Below, one piece after another: positions 33,732-56,525 of a stretch of 64,000 nt of DNA. The position numbers were made by a program, and so were the translations under genes. Within the stretch, counting starts at the first letter, position 1; every line of letters starts with the position of its first letter. The notes under the pieces were generated by a model that saw only the letters and a program-made list of their open reading frames with translations, ran no database searches and had not been told where the DNA came from. Source of the stretch: a virus; the IMG/VR virus record IMGVR_UViG_3300036861_000507, positions 1 through 64,000 of that record; one strand, written 5' to 3'.

Positions 33732-35096
33732 TTACTCAAGCTCATCGATTGTGACGGCCTTTGTGCGGCCCGCTGTCGCGGATTGCGCCGGACCCGGCAA
33801 GGCGGTGTGACGGCTCCCCTCCTCGAACGCACGACCGCGATCAAGCGCGGCATGCAAATGCTTCACCTCGAGGAAGGCGTAGGCGCGCTCGGTCTGCTCG
33901 ATCGAGGCGTGTCCCAGCCACTTCGAAACTTCCTCCATGGAGAGCCGCAGGTCCTGCAAGAGCCGGCACCCGCACGTGCGTCTCAGGTCATGCCAGCGCA
34001 GATCGGGGATGACGTCGGCCCAGGCCTGCTTCTCCTGGAGGGCGGCGATCTCAGTCCGGCGTGCCGGGGTCAGCTTCAGTCCCTTCTGCGCGAGCTTGGT
34101 CACCTCGCGGCGAAAGATGTAGGTGCGCCCGCCTGTGGCAATGTCCTTGAGCATGGGCAGCAGGTCAAAATAGCGGCTGCGGGTCTCGCCATCCTGGTGC
34201 CATAGCACGAACGGAGCCTTCTCACGCCCGCGCGGGTCGTTCTTGCCGGCCAACACATCGGCGGCCCGCGGCAGGGCTTTCAAGATCTTGACGCTGCGCT
34301 GAGGGATCGGAATAGTGCGGCCCTTGCCCGTCTTGCGACCAGTCTTGGCGAGCTCTCTTGGGACGTGCCACTCCGGCGTAGCCTTATCCAGATCGATCAT
34401 GGTCCAGTCAGCAGCGAGCAACTCCTCCTTGCGCAAGCCTATGTCGATCGTCAGCACGATACCGGCGAACAGCATGATGTGGTCCTCCTGCCGCATCGCC
34501 TCGCCATCCCAGCGCGTGAGCTTACCCCGGCAACGCCTGATCAGTTCGTCCTCCTCCTGGTGGCTCAGATAGCGGGTGCGGGTCGGCGCTGGCAACAGCA
34601 GGCCGCGCTTGGCGCGATTGCGCACGTAAGCTGCCACGCGGTTGCCCTCCACCCACTCCCACTCCATGGCGCAGGTGAACATGGCGGATAGGCAGGTGAG
34701 GTCGTTCAGGATCGTGCCGCTGGTGACGCCATCGCGTCGGCGCTTCTGCTCGAACTCCGACAACGTCGACGAGGTGATCTCGTCCAGCATCTTGCCCTTG
34801 AATTGCGCGGTGAGCACCTTGAGGGACTGCAGATAGCGCTGCGCTCCACGCGGCTTCAACCGCGGCAGATGTTCGTCTATGAACTTGTTAGCTGCCTCCG
34901 TGTAGGAGCGCGCAGGCTTTTCTCCCCAGCCTTGACCCTCGAGCTCTGCGAGCCACTTCTTGACCCGCTCTCGAGCAACCTTTGGATCCTTTGTTCCAAG
35001 AGGGTCTCGGAATGGCTTTCCATTCTTTTCCTTGCGCCCCCACGCCCACTCCCCGCGCCACCAGACGTTGTCGATTTTCGGCTTCTTGCTTGCCAT
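33732..35096 (-). CDS. int: Tyrosine recombinase integrase
   Basis: This 454-residue protein has the catalytic set: Arg222 in DIGLRKEELLAADW, His369 and Arg372 in WHDLRRTCGC, His396 in WLGHASIEQTERAYAFL, and the nucleophile Tyr406. The N-terminal ~110 residues bind arm-type sites and the middle ~60 form a SAM-like core-binding domain. It should recombine the adjacent attP with a tRNA-Thr gene. The start at 35096 lies well inside the upstream excisionase-like gene. Confidence 0.92.
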   Translation of the reverse strand: MASKKPKIDNVWWRGEWAWGRKEKNGKPFRDPLGTKDPKVARERVKKWLAELEGQGWGEKPARSYTEAANKFIDEHLPRLKPRGAQRYLQSLKVLTAQFKGKMLDEITSSTLSEFEQKRRRDGVTSGTILNDLTCLSAMFTCAMEWEWVEGNRVAAYVRNRAKRGLLLPAPTRTRYLSHQEEDELIRRCRGKLTRWDGEAMRQEDHIMLFAGIVLTIDIGLRKEELLAADWTMIDLDKATPEWHVPRELAKTGRKTGKGRTIPIPQRSVKILKALPRAADVLAGKNDPRGREKAPFVLWHQDGETRSRYFDLLPMLKDIATGGRTYIFRREVTKLAQKGLKLTPARRTEIAALQEKQAWADVIPDLRWHDLRRTCGCRLLQDLRLSMEEVSKWLGHASIEQTERAYAFLEVKHLHAALDRGRAFEEGSRHTALPGPAQSATAGRTKAVTIDELE

Positions 35097-50960: not shown

Positions 50961-51518
50961 GTGAGCGGCTGGACTGACGAAAGGGTCGAGCTTTTAAAGC
51001 AGCTGGTGGCCGACGGCCTGAGCGCTGCGCAATGCGCCGCTCGGCTCGGCGGCTTCAAGCATTGCGCCGATGGTGGGCGCTCCGCCGTGATCGGCAAGAC
51101 GCATCGGCTCGGCATCGCCCAGAGCCGCTCCAGTTATGTGTCCAAGCCACGACGCGGAGCAGGCAAGACCAAGCCGCGCAAGCTGCACCGGCTCTCTCCA
51201 GATCACGCCGCCCTGGCGCAGATGCGGCGGGAGGCGTTCCGGGCCGAGCCGGACCTCGTCGTGCCCGAGAACGAGCGGCGCGGCCTGCTCGATCTGCAGC
51301 CTGGAACTTGTAAATGGCCGATTGGGGATCCCAAGGCACCCGACTTCCACTTCTGCAATCGGATGCAGATCGGCACCGACTCGCACGCCCGCCGCGGCAT
51401 GCACGTCTACTGTGAATTCCACGCAGCCCGTTCGAGCGATGGCCCGGCCGTTCGCAGCCGGAGACCTTCTGCCGCTCCGGCTCCGGCTCGCCAGCGCGAA
51501 GACATGGAGACCGCATGA
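50961..51518 (+). CDS. gcrA: GcrA-family transcription regulator
   Basis: This 185-residue protein starts MSGWTDERVELLKQLVADGL, SAAQCAARLGG, the GcrA N-terminal helix-turn-helix, and has the C-terminal CKWPIGDPKAPDFHFC, then YCEFH. In Caulobacter and relatives Gcr A binds promoters with GAnTC sites methylated by CcrM and contacts sigma70 RNA polymerase. A phage copy could redirect host transcription. It reads from GTG at 50961. Confidence 0.85.
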   Translation: MSGWTDERVELLKQLVADGLSAAQCAARLGGFKHCADGGRSAVIGKTHRLGIAQSRSSYVSKPRRGAGKTKPRKLHRLSPDHAALAQMRREAFRAEPDLVVPENERRGLLDLQPGTCKWPIGDPKAPDFHFCNRMQIGTDSHARRGMHVYCEFHAARSSDGPAVRSRRPSAAPAPARQREDMETA

Positions 51519-53476: not shown

Positions 53477-53608
53477 ATGAAGCGTTACGAGCCCACCACG
53501 CCGATCATCCGACGCACCCGCCTCATCAGGGTCGAGAGGGTCGTGCGCGTGTCGAGGGTGGCGGCACGCAGGAAGAGGTTGGCGTTGCTCGATAGGAGGG
53601 CGGCCTAG
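53477..53608 (+). CDS. Small Arg-rich protein
   Basis: A 43-residue ORF, MKRYEPTTPIIRRTRLIRVE to DRRAA, begins right after the membrane-protein stop and ends overlapping the next start. It is very basic and may bind nucleic acid. Coding status is moderate. Confidence 0.4.
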   Translation: MKRYEPTTPIIRRTRLIRVERVVRVSRVAARRKRLALLDRRAA

Positions 53609-53676
53609 TGACTGATCTGATCCGCGACTACCTGCCATGGCTGCTCTCCGCCATCACTGGGGGCGCACATGGCTGA
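53608..53676 (+). pseudogene. Severed 5' end of the small membrane-protein gene
   Basis: GTG at 53608 opens a 22-codon frame (MTDLIRDYLPWLLSAITGGA, HG). Its DYLPWLLSAxT segment repeats the start of the gene at 54202 (AYLPWLLSALT). The frame is cut by the HNH-AP2 gene that begins at 53669. It looks like the original 5' end separated from the body of the gene. Confidence 0.5.
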
Positions 53677-54205
53677 ACTGACGGTCGAGCGTCTGCGCGC
53701 TCTATTGGATTACAATCCCCTAAGTGGCGTGTTCACTTGGAAAACGAGAACCGTGTTCACGAAGTGGGACAAGGTGTGGAACACGCGTTTCGCTGGCAAG
53801 ACGGCTGGCGGCAAATCTCAACTGAAGCACCGTAAGAGTCCACAATGGACGATCGCGATTGATAACCGCAAATACCTAGCTCACCGCCTTGCGTGGCTCC
53901 ATCACTACGGCGTCTGGCCGACTCTGGACGTCGACCATCGCGACACCGACAGCTGCAACAACAGGATTGCTAATCTGCGCGAGGCAACGGGCGCGCAGAA
54001 CCAGGCGAACGGCGGCTCTCACTCTCACAGCCACTGTGGGATCAAGGGCGTGTCATTCCATAAGCTGACCGGCAGGTGGATGGCGCGCATCGCAGCCAAC
54101 GGCAAGCAGCACTATCTTGGTCTGTTCGACAGCGCGGACGCAGCACGCGCCGCCTATGCCGCCGCCGCACCAATCCATCACGGCGAATTCGCGAGGCTCC
54201 GATGA
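53669..54205 (+). CDS. HNH-AP2 homing endonuclease
   Basis: This 178-residue protein has an HNH core (YLAHRLAWLHHYGVWPTLDV, DHRDTDSCNNRIANLREAT) and an AP2-type DNA-binding end (GIKGVSFHKLTGRWMARIAA, NGKQHYLGLFDSADAARAAY). The combination is typical of stand-alone phage homing endonucleases. It lies between two copies of the DYLPWLLSA-type sequence. Confidence 0.88.
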   Translation: MAELTVERLRALLDYNPLSGVFTWKTRTVFTKWDKVWNTRFAGKTAGGKSQLKHRKSPQWTIAIDNRKYLAHRLAWLHHYGVWPTLDVDHRDTDSCNNRIANLREATGAQNQANGGSHSHSHCGIKGVSFHKLTGRWMARIAANGKQHYLGLFDSADAARAAYAAAAPIHHGEFARLR

Positions 54206-54504
54206 CGTGGCGCGACATCATCATCGCTTATCTGCCGTGGCTGTTGTCGGCACTGACGGTTTACATGACCCTTCTTGCCGGCAACAAGCACCCGTCAGCG
54301 TGGGCCGTCGGCCTCGTCAATCAGGCGCTGTGGCTCGGCTGGATCGTCACGGTCGGCGCCTGGGGATTGCTGCCGATGAACGCGGCGCTGTGGGTCGTCT
54401 ACGCGCGCAATCACTTCAAGTGGAGGATGCCCAATGACGTGATCCCGAAAAGCGAGAAGGCCCCGGAGGGCGAACCCCGGGGCCTTCGAATTCCAACCGC
54501 GTAA
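54202..54504 (+). CDS. Small membrane protein
   Basis: This 100-residue protein starts MTWRDIIIAYLPWLLSALTV and contains YMTLLAGNKHPSAWAVGLVN and ALWLGWIVTVGAWGLLPMNA, with three likely membrane segments and a polar end. It overlaps the HNH-AP2 gene end (ATGA). Position just before the replication gene suggests a small phage membrane protein; not recognised. Confidence 0.6.
   Translation: MTWRDIIIAYLPWLLSALTVYMTLLAGNKHPSAWAVGLVNQALWLGWIVTVGAWGLLPMNAALWVVYARNHFKWRMPNDVIPKSEKAPEGEPRGLRIPTA
54456..54487 (+). terminator. Terminator-like hairpin inside a gene 3' end
   Basis: GAAGGCCCC (54456-54464) pairs with GGGGCCTTC (54479-54487), extended by further GC pairs. It lies in the last codons of the small membrane-protein gene and just before the DUF1376 gene. 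No T-run follows, so it may attenuate instead of stopping transcription. Confidence 0.5.
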
Positions 54505-54566
54505 GCGTCCACCCGACCAAAGGAGACACTCACAATGTCACAGCGAAACCAGAGGAGATTTCAACC

Positions 54567-55472
54567 GTGAACGCACAGAATGTACACGACAAAGGCAGCA
54601 AAAGCAAGGCGCCAATGCCGTGGTTCAAGATGTATCCAGAGGCATATCTGGAGGGCACACGAAAGCTAACACCAGAGCAGCGCGGTATTTATTCCGACTG
54701 CCTGATGCTGCTCTACAAGCACGACAAGCCGCTTCCGAAAAATGATGCCTGGATGGCGTGCGAGCTGCATGTGAACGTCAAGGTCTGGCGACGGGTGCGG
54801 GATCTTCTGCTCTCGCTCGGGAAGCTGATCGAAATGCCAGATGGGTACATCAACAACCGCGCCGCAATCGAGTGTGAAGAGCGGTTGAAACGCCGTTCCA
54901 ACAAGGTTGCAAGCCAGTTGCAACTTGGTTTGCAACTCGGTTCCAAACCAACTGCAACCGAGTTGCAAACCGTTTCCGACCCAGGATTGCCCAGCGATAA
55001 CAACGACCGGCCTCCGAAGTTGCATGTTATTGCGGGCGCGACTTCGGCACCAAATGGCCCGAGACACGCGTGCGCGCGCGCGCGCGCCTCAGATCATCAG
55101 ATCATAGAAGAAGAGAAAGATAGTTCTTCTTCTGATGCTCCGCTGATTGATGATGATCCCCTCAAGCGCAGGCGGACGTTGCCGTCACATTTGGTGATGG
55201 CGCTGGCTAACCACGTCGGGACCGAACGCGCGCAGGAGATCGCCGACGAGTACATGGGCAGTGAGTTCGGCAGAGGCGCCAAGGTCTTTGAGCGCGCCTT
55301 CCCGGCATGGGTGCTGAAAGTTCACAAGATCAACATCGACGCAGCGCATGCGCCGACGTTAGCCGCAGAGATCATCGCTCTGTGTGGAACCGATGCGAGC
55401 GGCAAGCTGGACTTGTCGTTACCGAAGCGTGTGAGCCAAGCACCCCCGCCGAACAAGGGGAGGGCTGCGTAA
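54567..55472 (+). CDS. DUF1376-family replication-type protein
   Basis: This 301-residue protein has PWFKMYPEAYLEGTRKLTPE, QRGIYSDCLMLLYKHDKPLP and VNVKVWRRVRDLLLSLGKLI, EMPDGYINNRAA, the DUF1376 N-terminal winged-helix signature of phage replication initiators. The middle (~115-210) is low-complexity and carries the iteron array, the GC-alternating tract and an AT-rich tract at DNA level. The C-terminus (~210-301) is helical. This layout recalls lambda O, whose gene holds the origin. Confidence 0.75.
   Translation: MNAQNVHDKGSKSKAPMPWFKMYPEAYLEGTRKLTPEQRGIYSDCLMLLYKHDKPLPKNDAWMACELHVNVKVWRRVRDLLLSLGKLIEMPDGYINNRAAIECEERLKRRSNKVASQLQLGLQLGSKPTATELQTVSDPGLPSDNNDRPPKLHVIAGATSAPNGPRHACARARASDHQIIEEEKDSSSSDAPLIDDDPLKRRRTLPSHLVMALANHVGTERAQEIADEYMGSEFGRGAKVFERAFPAWVLKVHKINIDAAHAPTLAAEIIALCGTDASGKLDLSLPKRVSQAPPPNKGRAA
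54907..54968. other. Candidate replication origin: phased TTGCAA iterons
   Basis: TTGCAA occurs at 54907, 54918, 54930 and 54963, with near copies TTCCAA at 54941 and CTGCAA at 54952. Successive starts are 11, 12, 11, 11 and 11 nt apart, close to one helical turn. The 11-nt period is not a multiple of three, so protein repetition does not explain it. The array lies inside the replication gene, as in lambda. Confidence 0.6.
55064..55160. repeat. Alternating purine-pyrimidine tract followed by AT-rich tract
   Basis: Positions 55064-55087 alternate purine and pyrimidine, mostly GCGC, a form that can adopt Z-DNA. The next ~70 nt (AGATCATCAGATCAT, then purine-rich GAAGAAGAG and TTCTTCTTC) are markedly AT-rich for this genome and can form a small hairpin. 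Downstream of the iterons this may act as a DNA unwinding element. Confidence 0.5.
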
Positions 55473-56098
55473 TGGATAACGCTCCTTTCGGCTCACCGAT
55501 TGAGATCGAGCTGGCGGCCGGCATCGTCGAACATGGCGGAATGCAATTCGTGCCCAAGTTCGGCTTGCCTTACGAGGAGATCCGCAACGAAGCAGCGAAG
55601 GCCATTGGCCGAAGAGACCAGGCGCGCCTCAAGAAGGCGGTCGTTTTTCCGCAAGTGAAGATCGCCAAGTATGTCGTCGATTTCCTGGCTCTGTTTTGGG
55701 ACGACCGCGATTTCATCATGCCGATCGCCGTCGAGTGCGACGGGCATGATTTTCACGAACGCACGCCCCGACAGGCCCAATACGACAAGCTGCGCGACCG
55801 TTTCTTCGCAACCAACTCGATTTTCGTCATGCGGTTCACGGGCCGCGAAATCAAGCGCGATCCCGTCGACTGTGCGCGCCAAGTCTATCGAGCGACGGAG
55901 TTCACCGCACGCGGTCCATCCGCCAGCTTGGTGGGCGTGCAGTGGATCCTCTCCGAAGCTGAACTCGATGTGCTGCTTGAAGCGCAAGAGCACGAAGCCG
56001 AGCAAGAGTATTTCCGCGAGCAGCAGATCGAGGACTTCAAGCGCAAGCTGAGCATCGATGAGATCATGTCGGGTACCTACGAGGGCCTCTACCCATGA
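55472..56098 (+). CDS. DUF559-like endonuclease-fold protein
   Basis: This 208-residue protein contains KIAKYVVDFLALFWD, PIAVECDGHDFHERTPRQAQ, YDKLRDRFFATNSIFVMRFT, GREIKRDP. The pattern matches DUF559/Vsr-like nuclease folds with the D...E-x-D-G core. It follows the replication gene with a TAATG overlap. A role in repair or replication is likely. Confidence 0.7.
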   Translation: MDNAPFGSPIEIELAAGIVEHGGMQFVPKFGLPYEEIRNEAAKAIGRRDQARLKKAVVFPQVKIAKYVVDFLALFWDDRDFIMPIAVECDGHDFHERTPRQAQYDKLRDRFFATNSIFVMRFTGREIKRDPVDCARQVYRATEFTARGPSASLVGVQWILSEAELDVLLEAQEHEAEQEYFREQQIEDFKRKLSIDEIMSGTYEGLYP

Positions 56099-56292
56099 CC
56101 CTCTACCACCTCACCACCGGCCACTACCCTTCCAAGGCCTACGCCGTCCGCGCTGGCACGCACCAGGACGAGCCCGTCATCGCCTGGGTCCAGCGCAAGG
56201 GTGCGGCCGCCCTGTTCAAGAAATCCGATGCGCTGAAGTTGGCGCGCAGAATGCGCAAGGTGGTGCGGGTGAAATTGGAGGTGGCCGCATGA
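56095..56292 (+). CDS. Small basic protein
   Basis: This 65-residue protein reads MTLYHLTTGHYPSKAYAVRA, then AWVQRKGAAALFKKSDALKL and a basic end. Start overlaps the upstream stop (ATGA). Not recognised. Confidence 0.5.
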   Translation: MTLYHLTTGHYPSKAYAVRAGTHQDEPVIAWVQRKGAAALFKKSDALKLARRMRKVVRVKLEVAA

Positions 56293-56525
56293 CGCCCTGC
56301 ACCTACTGCTCCCACCCCCTCAAACCCACCGACTCCCACCTGACCGTCAACGCCATGGACGGGGTCTCCGGGATGTTCTGCTCGACGCTGTGCTTCGACG
56401 GGGCGCGCATGCGGGGAGCGGTGGTGGAGACGGGGTTGCTGCTGGCCGATCTCGATGGAGCACGCGGCTGGTACGAGTTGATGCTGGAAACGGTTGCACC
56501 GCGGATGATCGGGAGGTGTGCGTGA
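56289..56525 (+). CDS. Small zinc-ribbon-like protein
   Basis: This 78-residue protein (MTPCTYCSHPLKPTDSHLTV, then MFCSTLCFDGARMRGAVVET) has two CxxC-type pairs, as in small zinc ribbons. Start overlaps the upstream stop (ATGA). Confidence 0.5.
   Translation: MTPCTYCSHPLKPTDSHLTVNAMDGVSGMFCSTLCFDGARMRGAVVETGLLLADLDGARGWYELMLETVAPRMIGRCA

Follow-up and report, generated by a model that had tools for sequence, protein, structure and literature searches.

The question raised by this locus is whether a run of helically spaced TTGCAA-type sites inside a viral DUF1376 gene marks an origin of DNA replication. The window, the 64,000-nt (64-kb) stretch of DNA that was analyzed, belongs to a viral record of 93,968 bases, and the DUF1376 gene sits in the early region of that record, surrounded by genes for repressor-like, Cro-like, GcrA, HNH, and methyltransferase proteins. 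Our analysis indicates that positions 54881–55158 are likely to form the replication origin of the phage, lying inside the very gene that encodes its proposed initiator, with binding, melting, and initiation being inferred.

Exact copies of TTGCAA were located at 54907, 54918, 54930, and 54963, together with TTCCAA at 54941 and CTGCAA at 54952, at a spacing of 11–12 nt. Weaker units flank these six sites on both sides and in phase, and the complete array (Table 1) consists of eight units of 11 nt and one of 12 nt. It occupies nt 315–414 of the 906-nt gene, directly 3′ of the DUF1376 domain and within the linker to the C-terminal part. TTGCAA is not over-represented across the window (10 found, 9.4 expected), so the unusual feature is the phasing. 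When a chain was defined as 6-mers with at most one mismatch at steps of 11 ± 1 nt, the six-copy chain was the only one of its kind in the 64 kb. The longest chain in dinucleotide shuffles of 53501–56500 (n = 200) had four copies, and synonymous-codon shuffles of the gene (n = 2000) gave five copies in 10 cases and six copies in none; the array and its significance are shown by these counts. The units begin in all three codon frames, and therefore no peptide repeat lies beneath the array. A 7-mer chain search of the whole 93,968-base record also returned one other 11-nt chain, at position 81950 outside the window (L326), composed of five copies of GGCGCCG in a GC-rich stretch.

Table 1. Positions of the features discussed, in window coordinates unless another record is named.
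Feature	Position	Strand	Basis or remark
DUF1376 gene, 301 aa, proposed initiator; domain at residues 18–102	54567..55472	+	PF07120, PHROG, predicted winged helix
Array of nine ~11-nt units	54881..54980	+	Consensus NNGGTTGCAAC, dyad core GTTGCAAC
Starts of the array units	54881, 54892, 54903, 54914, 54925 (12 nt), 54937, 54948, 54959, 54970
Alternating purine-pyrimidine tract, 24 nt, mostly CG, possible Z-DNA	55064..55087		Read from sequence
CAGATCAT twice in tandem, leading into the AT-rich tract	55090..55105	+	Read from sequence
Putative DNA unwinding element	55099..55158		Lowest duplex stability over 60 bp in the 64 kb
Candidate position of Rac oriJ (prediction)	NC_000913 1421479-1421640 (L320)		ydaU 11-nt and short-repeat signals, melting minimum

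Beyond the array, the linker continues into an alternating purine-pyrimidine run and an AT-rich tract (Table 1). The easily melted character of this tract is shown by its rank within the window, and the short-repeat test of the gene gave p 0.01. The tract lies 119 nt from the array, and the least stable 60 bp of the gene start at +184 from the domain end, farther than in most relatives. GC skew over the window showed no switch attributable to an origin. An inverted repeat (AGAAGAA ... TTCTTCT) at 55106–55133, within the AT-rich tract, is capable of forming a hairpin. The first-pass annotation had described six TTGCAA-type sites (four exact, two one-base variants) 11–12 nt apart, a period of 11 that could not come from codon repetition, and Z-forming and AT-rich tracts beyond the array. 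Each of these claims held, the second through the use of all three frames and the Z-forming tract as an alternating purine-pyrimidine run; only the extent of the array had been set too short, at six sites instead of nine units.

The window protein meets the requirement for family membership, with a match to the PF07120 (DUF1376) profile of 48.6 bits against a curated cut-off of 30.1; DUF1376 was the only Pfam domain found in it at E ≤ 0.001, and its PHROG match is described as "primosomal protein." For residues 1–126, AlphaFold2 predicts a winged helix and a long helix (mean pLDDT 91). Comparison of this model by VIA-align gave matches to the ORC2 winged helix 7jgs_B (Z 8.1, rmsd 3.2, 77 aligned), the initiator domain 4pql_B (Z 7.0, rmsd 2.6, 77 aligned), and DnaD 2vn2_A (Z 6.7, rmsd 4.7, 86 aligned). 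These matches to initiators stand among many ordinary winged helices, so that an initiator function is possible on the basis of the predicted fold, which is compatible with it and not diagnostic of it. Foldseek gave no match in the PDB at E ≤ 0.001 and 26 matches in BFVD at that threshold, many of them annotated as DUF1376. A sequence search of the PDB with the family profile returned one weak match (Glr2806 protein, E 1.9e-4) and two weaker ones (E 0.31 and 0.42). Lambda O was absent from the listed structural matches (PDB, VIA-align, and BFVD), an absence that excludes nothing.

The gene next to DUF1376 in the window is DUF559-like; no helicase or loader gene adjoins DUF1376 there, and the DnaB_C profile had no match anywhere in the window's record. 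A single-protein search of viral contigs found no close relative of the window protein, and the nearest relatives obtained by alignment-based searches were 38% identical over about 110 residues. Conservation of the window's own array was therefore untestable, and the linker repeats were tested across the DUF1376 family instead.

Family loci were found via the protein, mostly its N-terminal domain, and the search was thus blind to the DNA of the linker. The sample is not an even one: it was drawn from phage records, viral contigs (with a maximum of 80 per scan), 8 genome contigs, and 19 whole-genome loci. From 319 sequences (318 loci plus the window stretch), 308 contained the domain, 290 were usable (untruncated, with 150 nt or more beyond the domain), and these formed 108 clusters, including that of the window; duplicates of one record, such as L015 and L076, shared one cluster. 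An early motif-chain score, computed for the window and 48 relatives, proved noisy: roughly half of its rows were near the shuffles. The lag test took its place. Within the linker, from -45 to +210 nt relative to the domain end, this test counts 7-mer pairs that differ by no more than one base and compares them with codon shuffles.

Across the 108 clusters, the lag test gave 641 pairs at lag 11 against 142 expected (z 24.7) and 488 against 120 at lag 22 (z 22.7). The corresponding values for short repeats were 616 against 117 at lag 7 (z 26.2) and 460 against 92 at lag 14 (z 24.2). The 180 control ORFs from the same loci carried no signal at lags 11 and 22 (57/64 and 79/76, observed/expected), and gave 87/66 and 101/65 at lags 7 and 14. 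Because lag 12 in the first set brought period 6 in with period 11, a strict set of lags 11, 22, and 33 was added. Examined gene by gene at p ≤ 0.05, this strict set was significant in 55 of 108 family genes compared with 6 of 180 controls, and lags 7 and 14 in 42 of 108 compared with 9 of 180. Both signals occurred together in 42 of the 108 family genes and in a single one of the 180 controls; 28 of the 108 had neither. We judge it very likely, and close to certain, that a conserved DNA element is present in DUF1376 genes. The first-pass annotation had proposed checking whether the array is conserved at the DNA level where the protein differs; the outcome is positive for the family, no close relative of the window gene having been found in which its own array could be compared.

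A period of 11 nt could also arise from the protein, since an amphipathic helix of 3.6 residues per turn corresponds to about 11 nt. The domain does end in a long predicted helix, and some rhizobial relatives have only 21/22-nt chains that barely exceed the codon shuffles. However, codon shuffles preserve the protein and abolish the signal, which contradicts this explanation for the strong arrays, and an identical 11-mer encodes different peptides in the three frames in which it occurs. We therefore consider protein-level periodicity very unlikely. All three codon frames are used in 35 of 48 arrays.

The sites themselves differ between DUF1376 lineages, the motif types including CGTTCAACG, GCAATGC, TGCGAACGCA, CGAAAAC, and the GTTGCAAC of the window. 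Dyad symmetry is common among them: arms of at least 3 were found in 29 of 37 consensus units (expected fraction 0.34) and arms of at least 4 in 17 of 37 (expected fraction 0.06). The similarity of the motifs showed a weak positive relation to the identity of the domains (rho 0.23), a value reached in none of 2000 permutations.

The two kinds of repeats follow a fixed order, which is shown family-wide. The 11-nt repeats peak between -10 and +50 nt from the domain end, and AT-rich 6/7-nt repeats peak between +40 and +120; at +60 to +100, the family linkers are up to 11 points richer in AT and are depleted in G. The least stable 60 bp of the gene start at +20 to +110 in 69 of the 108 genes, compared with 28.5 expected from codon shuffles and 13.6 from a uniform distribution. 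Alternating CG of at least 8 nt was present in 12 of 108 family linkers versus 2.3 expected. A smaller 11/22-nt excess was also seen within the DUF1376 domain, at -210 to -150 and -90 to -30 (coverage 0.11–0.17), for which there was no shuffle control.

Synonymous constraint at the same place is likewise shown. Within clusters, the codon identity of positions with the same amino acid was 0.88, 0.94, and 0.95 in bins 0, +30, and +60, up from a level of about 0.68, and about 0.6–0.7 in most other bins, while amino-acid identity was 0.71–0.76 in the array bins, 0.77–0.86 in the domain, and 0.45–0.6 in the C-terminal part. The profile was based on 24 clusters and the per-cluster contrast on 21, pairs with more than 93% synonymous identity being excluded; the array bins exceeded the domain bins in synonymous identity in 18 of these 21 clusters. 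The high synonymous identity probably reflects selection on the DNA letters, with local gene conversion between relatives as an alternative source. These data also bear on neutral slippage, in which short tandem repeats would simply be tolerated by a flexible linker. The 6/7-nt tandem repeats are prone to slippage and linkers do tolerate repeats, yet slippage predicts no excess of synonymous conservation, and conservation peaks exactly at the repeats. In addition, the 11-nt units are diverged and dyad-cored, and their position and order are fixed. Slippage is accordingly regarded as very unlikely.

The presence of replication genes beside DUF1376 genes in relatives is shown by the adjoining ORFs, counted for representatives with a callable ORF (92 downstream and 89 upstream). 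The 92 downstream ORFs contained DnaB_C (9), lambda P (4), IstB/DnaC-like (4), and DnaA C-terminal (2) domains, and DnaB was found in 6 of the 89 upstream ORFs. The dnaB gene stands immediately upstream of the DUF1376 gene in phiLM21 and Pkon1; in Pseudomonas phage AH02, the gene after DUF1376 encodes a helicase loader. Among other upstream genes, GcrA was encoded by 4 of the 89 ORFs; the window encodes a homologue of this cell-cycle regulator at 50961–51515 (E 4.3e-30).

A binding array without origin function was considered as an alternative, namely, an operator or silencer for the early operon, bound by the DUF1376 protein or another phage regulator, or else a target of some nucleoid or packaging protein. 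Phased short sites also serve regulation, the binding partner has not been identified, and the motif tracks the protein only weakly, all of which would suit such an array. It leaves unexplained, however, the AT-rich, G-poor, easily melted tract of 6/7-nt repeats at a fixed place after the array, as well as the helicase and loader neighbors, and we regard it as unlikely.

TTGCAA arrays also exist outside DUF1376 genes. In viral contigs, at least 120 stretches with three TTGCAA at 10–12-nt steps were found, and the spacing was exactly 11,11 in 74 of 140 TTGCAA matches. None of the 120 stretches lay in a DUF1376 ORF, and 12 of the 120 had a tRNA within 300 bp. Profiles were run on 10 of the 21 array-bearing ORFs and on only 10 flanking ORFs. 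Two of the 10 flanking ORFs were integrases with Arm-DNA-bind_1, and the 10 array-bearing ORFs included one integrase (L402) and one member of "replication initiation protein" families (L340). Because of the nearby tRNAs and the flanking integrases with an arm-binding domain, some of these arrays are probably integrase arm sites. Proteins of different kinds thus use TTGCAA at helical spacing, and an origin could not be recognized from this motif by itself.

Several of these loci are described here as separate observations. Exact 11-nt TTGCAA arrays lie between tRNA-Val and an ORF of ~1134 nt in five loci (L365:421-1743, L398:1468-2791, L400, L361, and L401); the ORF of L365, the only one of the five scanned, is an integrase with an arm-binding domain, and the five arrays, spaced like that of the window, are likely to be arm-type att sites. 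In L340:2381-3877, the array lies within the ORF matching "replication initiation protein" families, which is fused to HNH. In-ORF TTGCAA arrays in L395:4782-5789 and L373:9893-10669 are adjoined by 6-nt AT-rich repeats, as in the layout of the window, and the array-bearing proteins of these two loci had no family match.

The window array could likewise be presumed to be an attP, in which a tyrosine integrase would occupy the 11-nt TTGCAA repeats through its arm domain. The existence of such arrays, the tRNAs within 300 bp, and the flanking integrases described above favor this explanation. Nevertheless, the only integrase match of the record lies at 33876–34466, 20 kb away, so the array does not stand beside an integrase and the explanation fails for the window. 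The array also occupies the position at which other DUF1376 genes have 11-nt arrays of other motifs. An attP in the window is thus very unlikely.

The origin remains the best-supported reading, and the origin-like interpretation of the first-pass annotation is supported at the level of the family. In the proposed mechanism, the predicted winged helix of the DUF1376 protein would contact the 11-nt sites, with one protein or dimer per helical turn and all on one face of the DNA. The resulting complex would strain the duplex so that the nearby AT-rich tract opens, and DnaB helicase would be loaded at the opened tract. Host DnaB is proposed for this phage because no DnaB profile match was present in the record. 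The DUF1376 protein as the binder of the sites, the opening of DNA by its binding, and the start of replication at this position are all inferred, and there are no binding or replication data. Some points stand against an origin: 28 of the 108 family genes lack both signals, the easily melted stretch of the window gene begins only at +184, no helicase or loader is adjacent and the record has no DnaB_C match, the window gene has no close relative in which its array could be followed, TTGCAA arrays occur elsewhere, and the link between motif and protein is weak.

A bolder reading is that DUF1376/YdaU proteins are a separate and widespread initiator family of phages and prophages whose genes double as origins. 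Dense, dyad-cored sites placed once per helical turn would then support a continuous helical filament of the initiator, which may go on to contact the AT-rich strand, once melted, at its 6/7-nt repeats, comparable to DnaA with its boxes and trios; the oriJ of the Rac prophage would be the ydaU linker. Taken with all of these parts (the filament, the second array, and oriJ), we hold this reading only tentatively and lean slightly against it. Although it has a name, the DUF1376 domain, which occurs across prophages including Rac of E. coli K-12, has no known function. If the origin inferred for the window and the family is real, the function of the domain (initiator), its DNA target (the gene itself), and the origin position become predictable from sequence in many temperate phages. 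This would also give Rac oriJ a testable address, and the natural initiator-motif pairs could be used to ask how specificity shifts where a binding site must encode its binder as well.

The Rac prophage provides the first known system for comparison, since YdaU of E. coli K-12 is a member of the DUF1376 family and Rac has an active origin, oriJ (PMC3945230). The K-12 ydaU gene gave p 0.002 for the 11-nt signal and p 0.022 for the short repeats, and its linker holds the least stable 60 bp of the gene (record position 1421568); its motif is of the GTTCAA type, unlike the GTTGCAAC of the window. The location of oriJ within ydaU (Table 1) is a possibility inferred from sequence alone, and no source placing oriJ there was found. 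The open-access literature searched (including PMC11014345, PMC3945230, PMC5043065, and PMC7466680) reported no origin inside a DUF1376 gene; subscription papers were mostly not covered.

Origins of the RepA_N type and several of the DnaD type lie within the initiator gene. The winged-helix matches of the window protein to RepA_N (4pql, 4pt7, and 5kbj) and DnaD-type initiators were at the level of ordinary winged helices (Z 6.5–7.0), and the protein has no Pfam match to these initiators, only to DUF1376. Plasmid origins contain direct repeats in helical phase (PMC5043065), a feature shared by plasmid iteron origins and the window array, and the inferred origin would work like them in this respect. 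Plasmid iterons differ from the units of the window in being about 20 bp long.

A strict lambda O-type origin was tried as a candidate and rejected, since the DUF1376 protein has no detectable homology to lambda O (hhalign probability 4.7%) and the spacing differs: the sites of the window are 11–12 nt apart, whereas the lambda type has 18–19-bp iterons at 20–24 nt. The repeat detector applied to the DUF1376 genes also recovered the iterons annotated in lambda O and in phi80 gene 15, with a spacing of 20–23 nt overall and 21–23 nt for lambda. The window also lacks the adjacent loader gene that is a lambda O-type feature, its next gene being DUF559-like, and the DUF1376 family has an additional array of 6/7-nt repeats, unlike lambda ori. 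On the other hand, the sites in lambda ori (gene O) and phi80 gene 15 lie within the initiator gene, just past the N-terminal DNA-binding part, and the window array lies at a like place in its putative initiator gene; the lambda iterons are at nt 349–433 of the 900-nt O gene, compared with nt 315–414 of 906 in the window. In lambda ori, the iterons are followed by an A+T-rich tract, which opens (PMC5043065), and the window too has an A+T-rich, easily melted tract near its array, though 119 nt away. The first-pass claim that the locus is laid out like lambda-type origins is therefore partly upheld: the window gene falls outside the lambda O family in the tests applied, and the origin that we infer within it would work like lambda ori.
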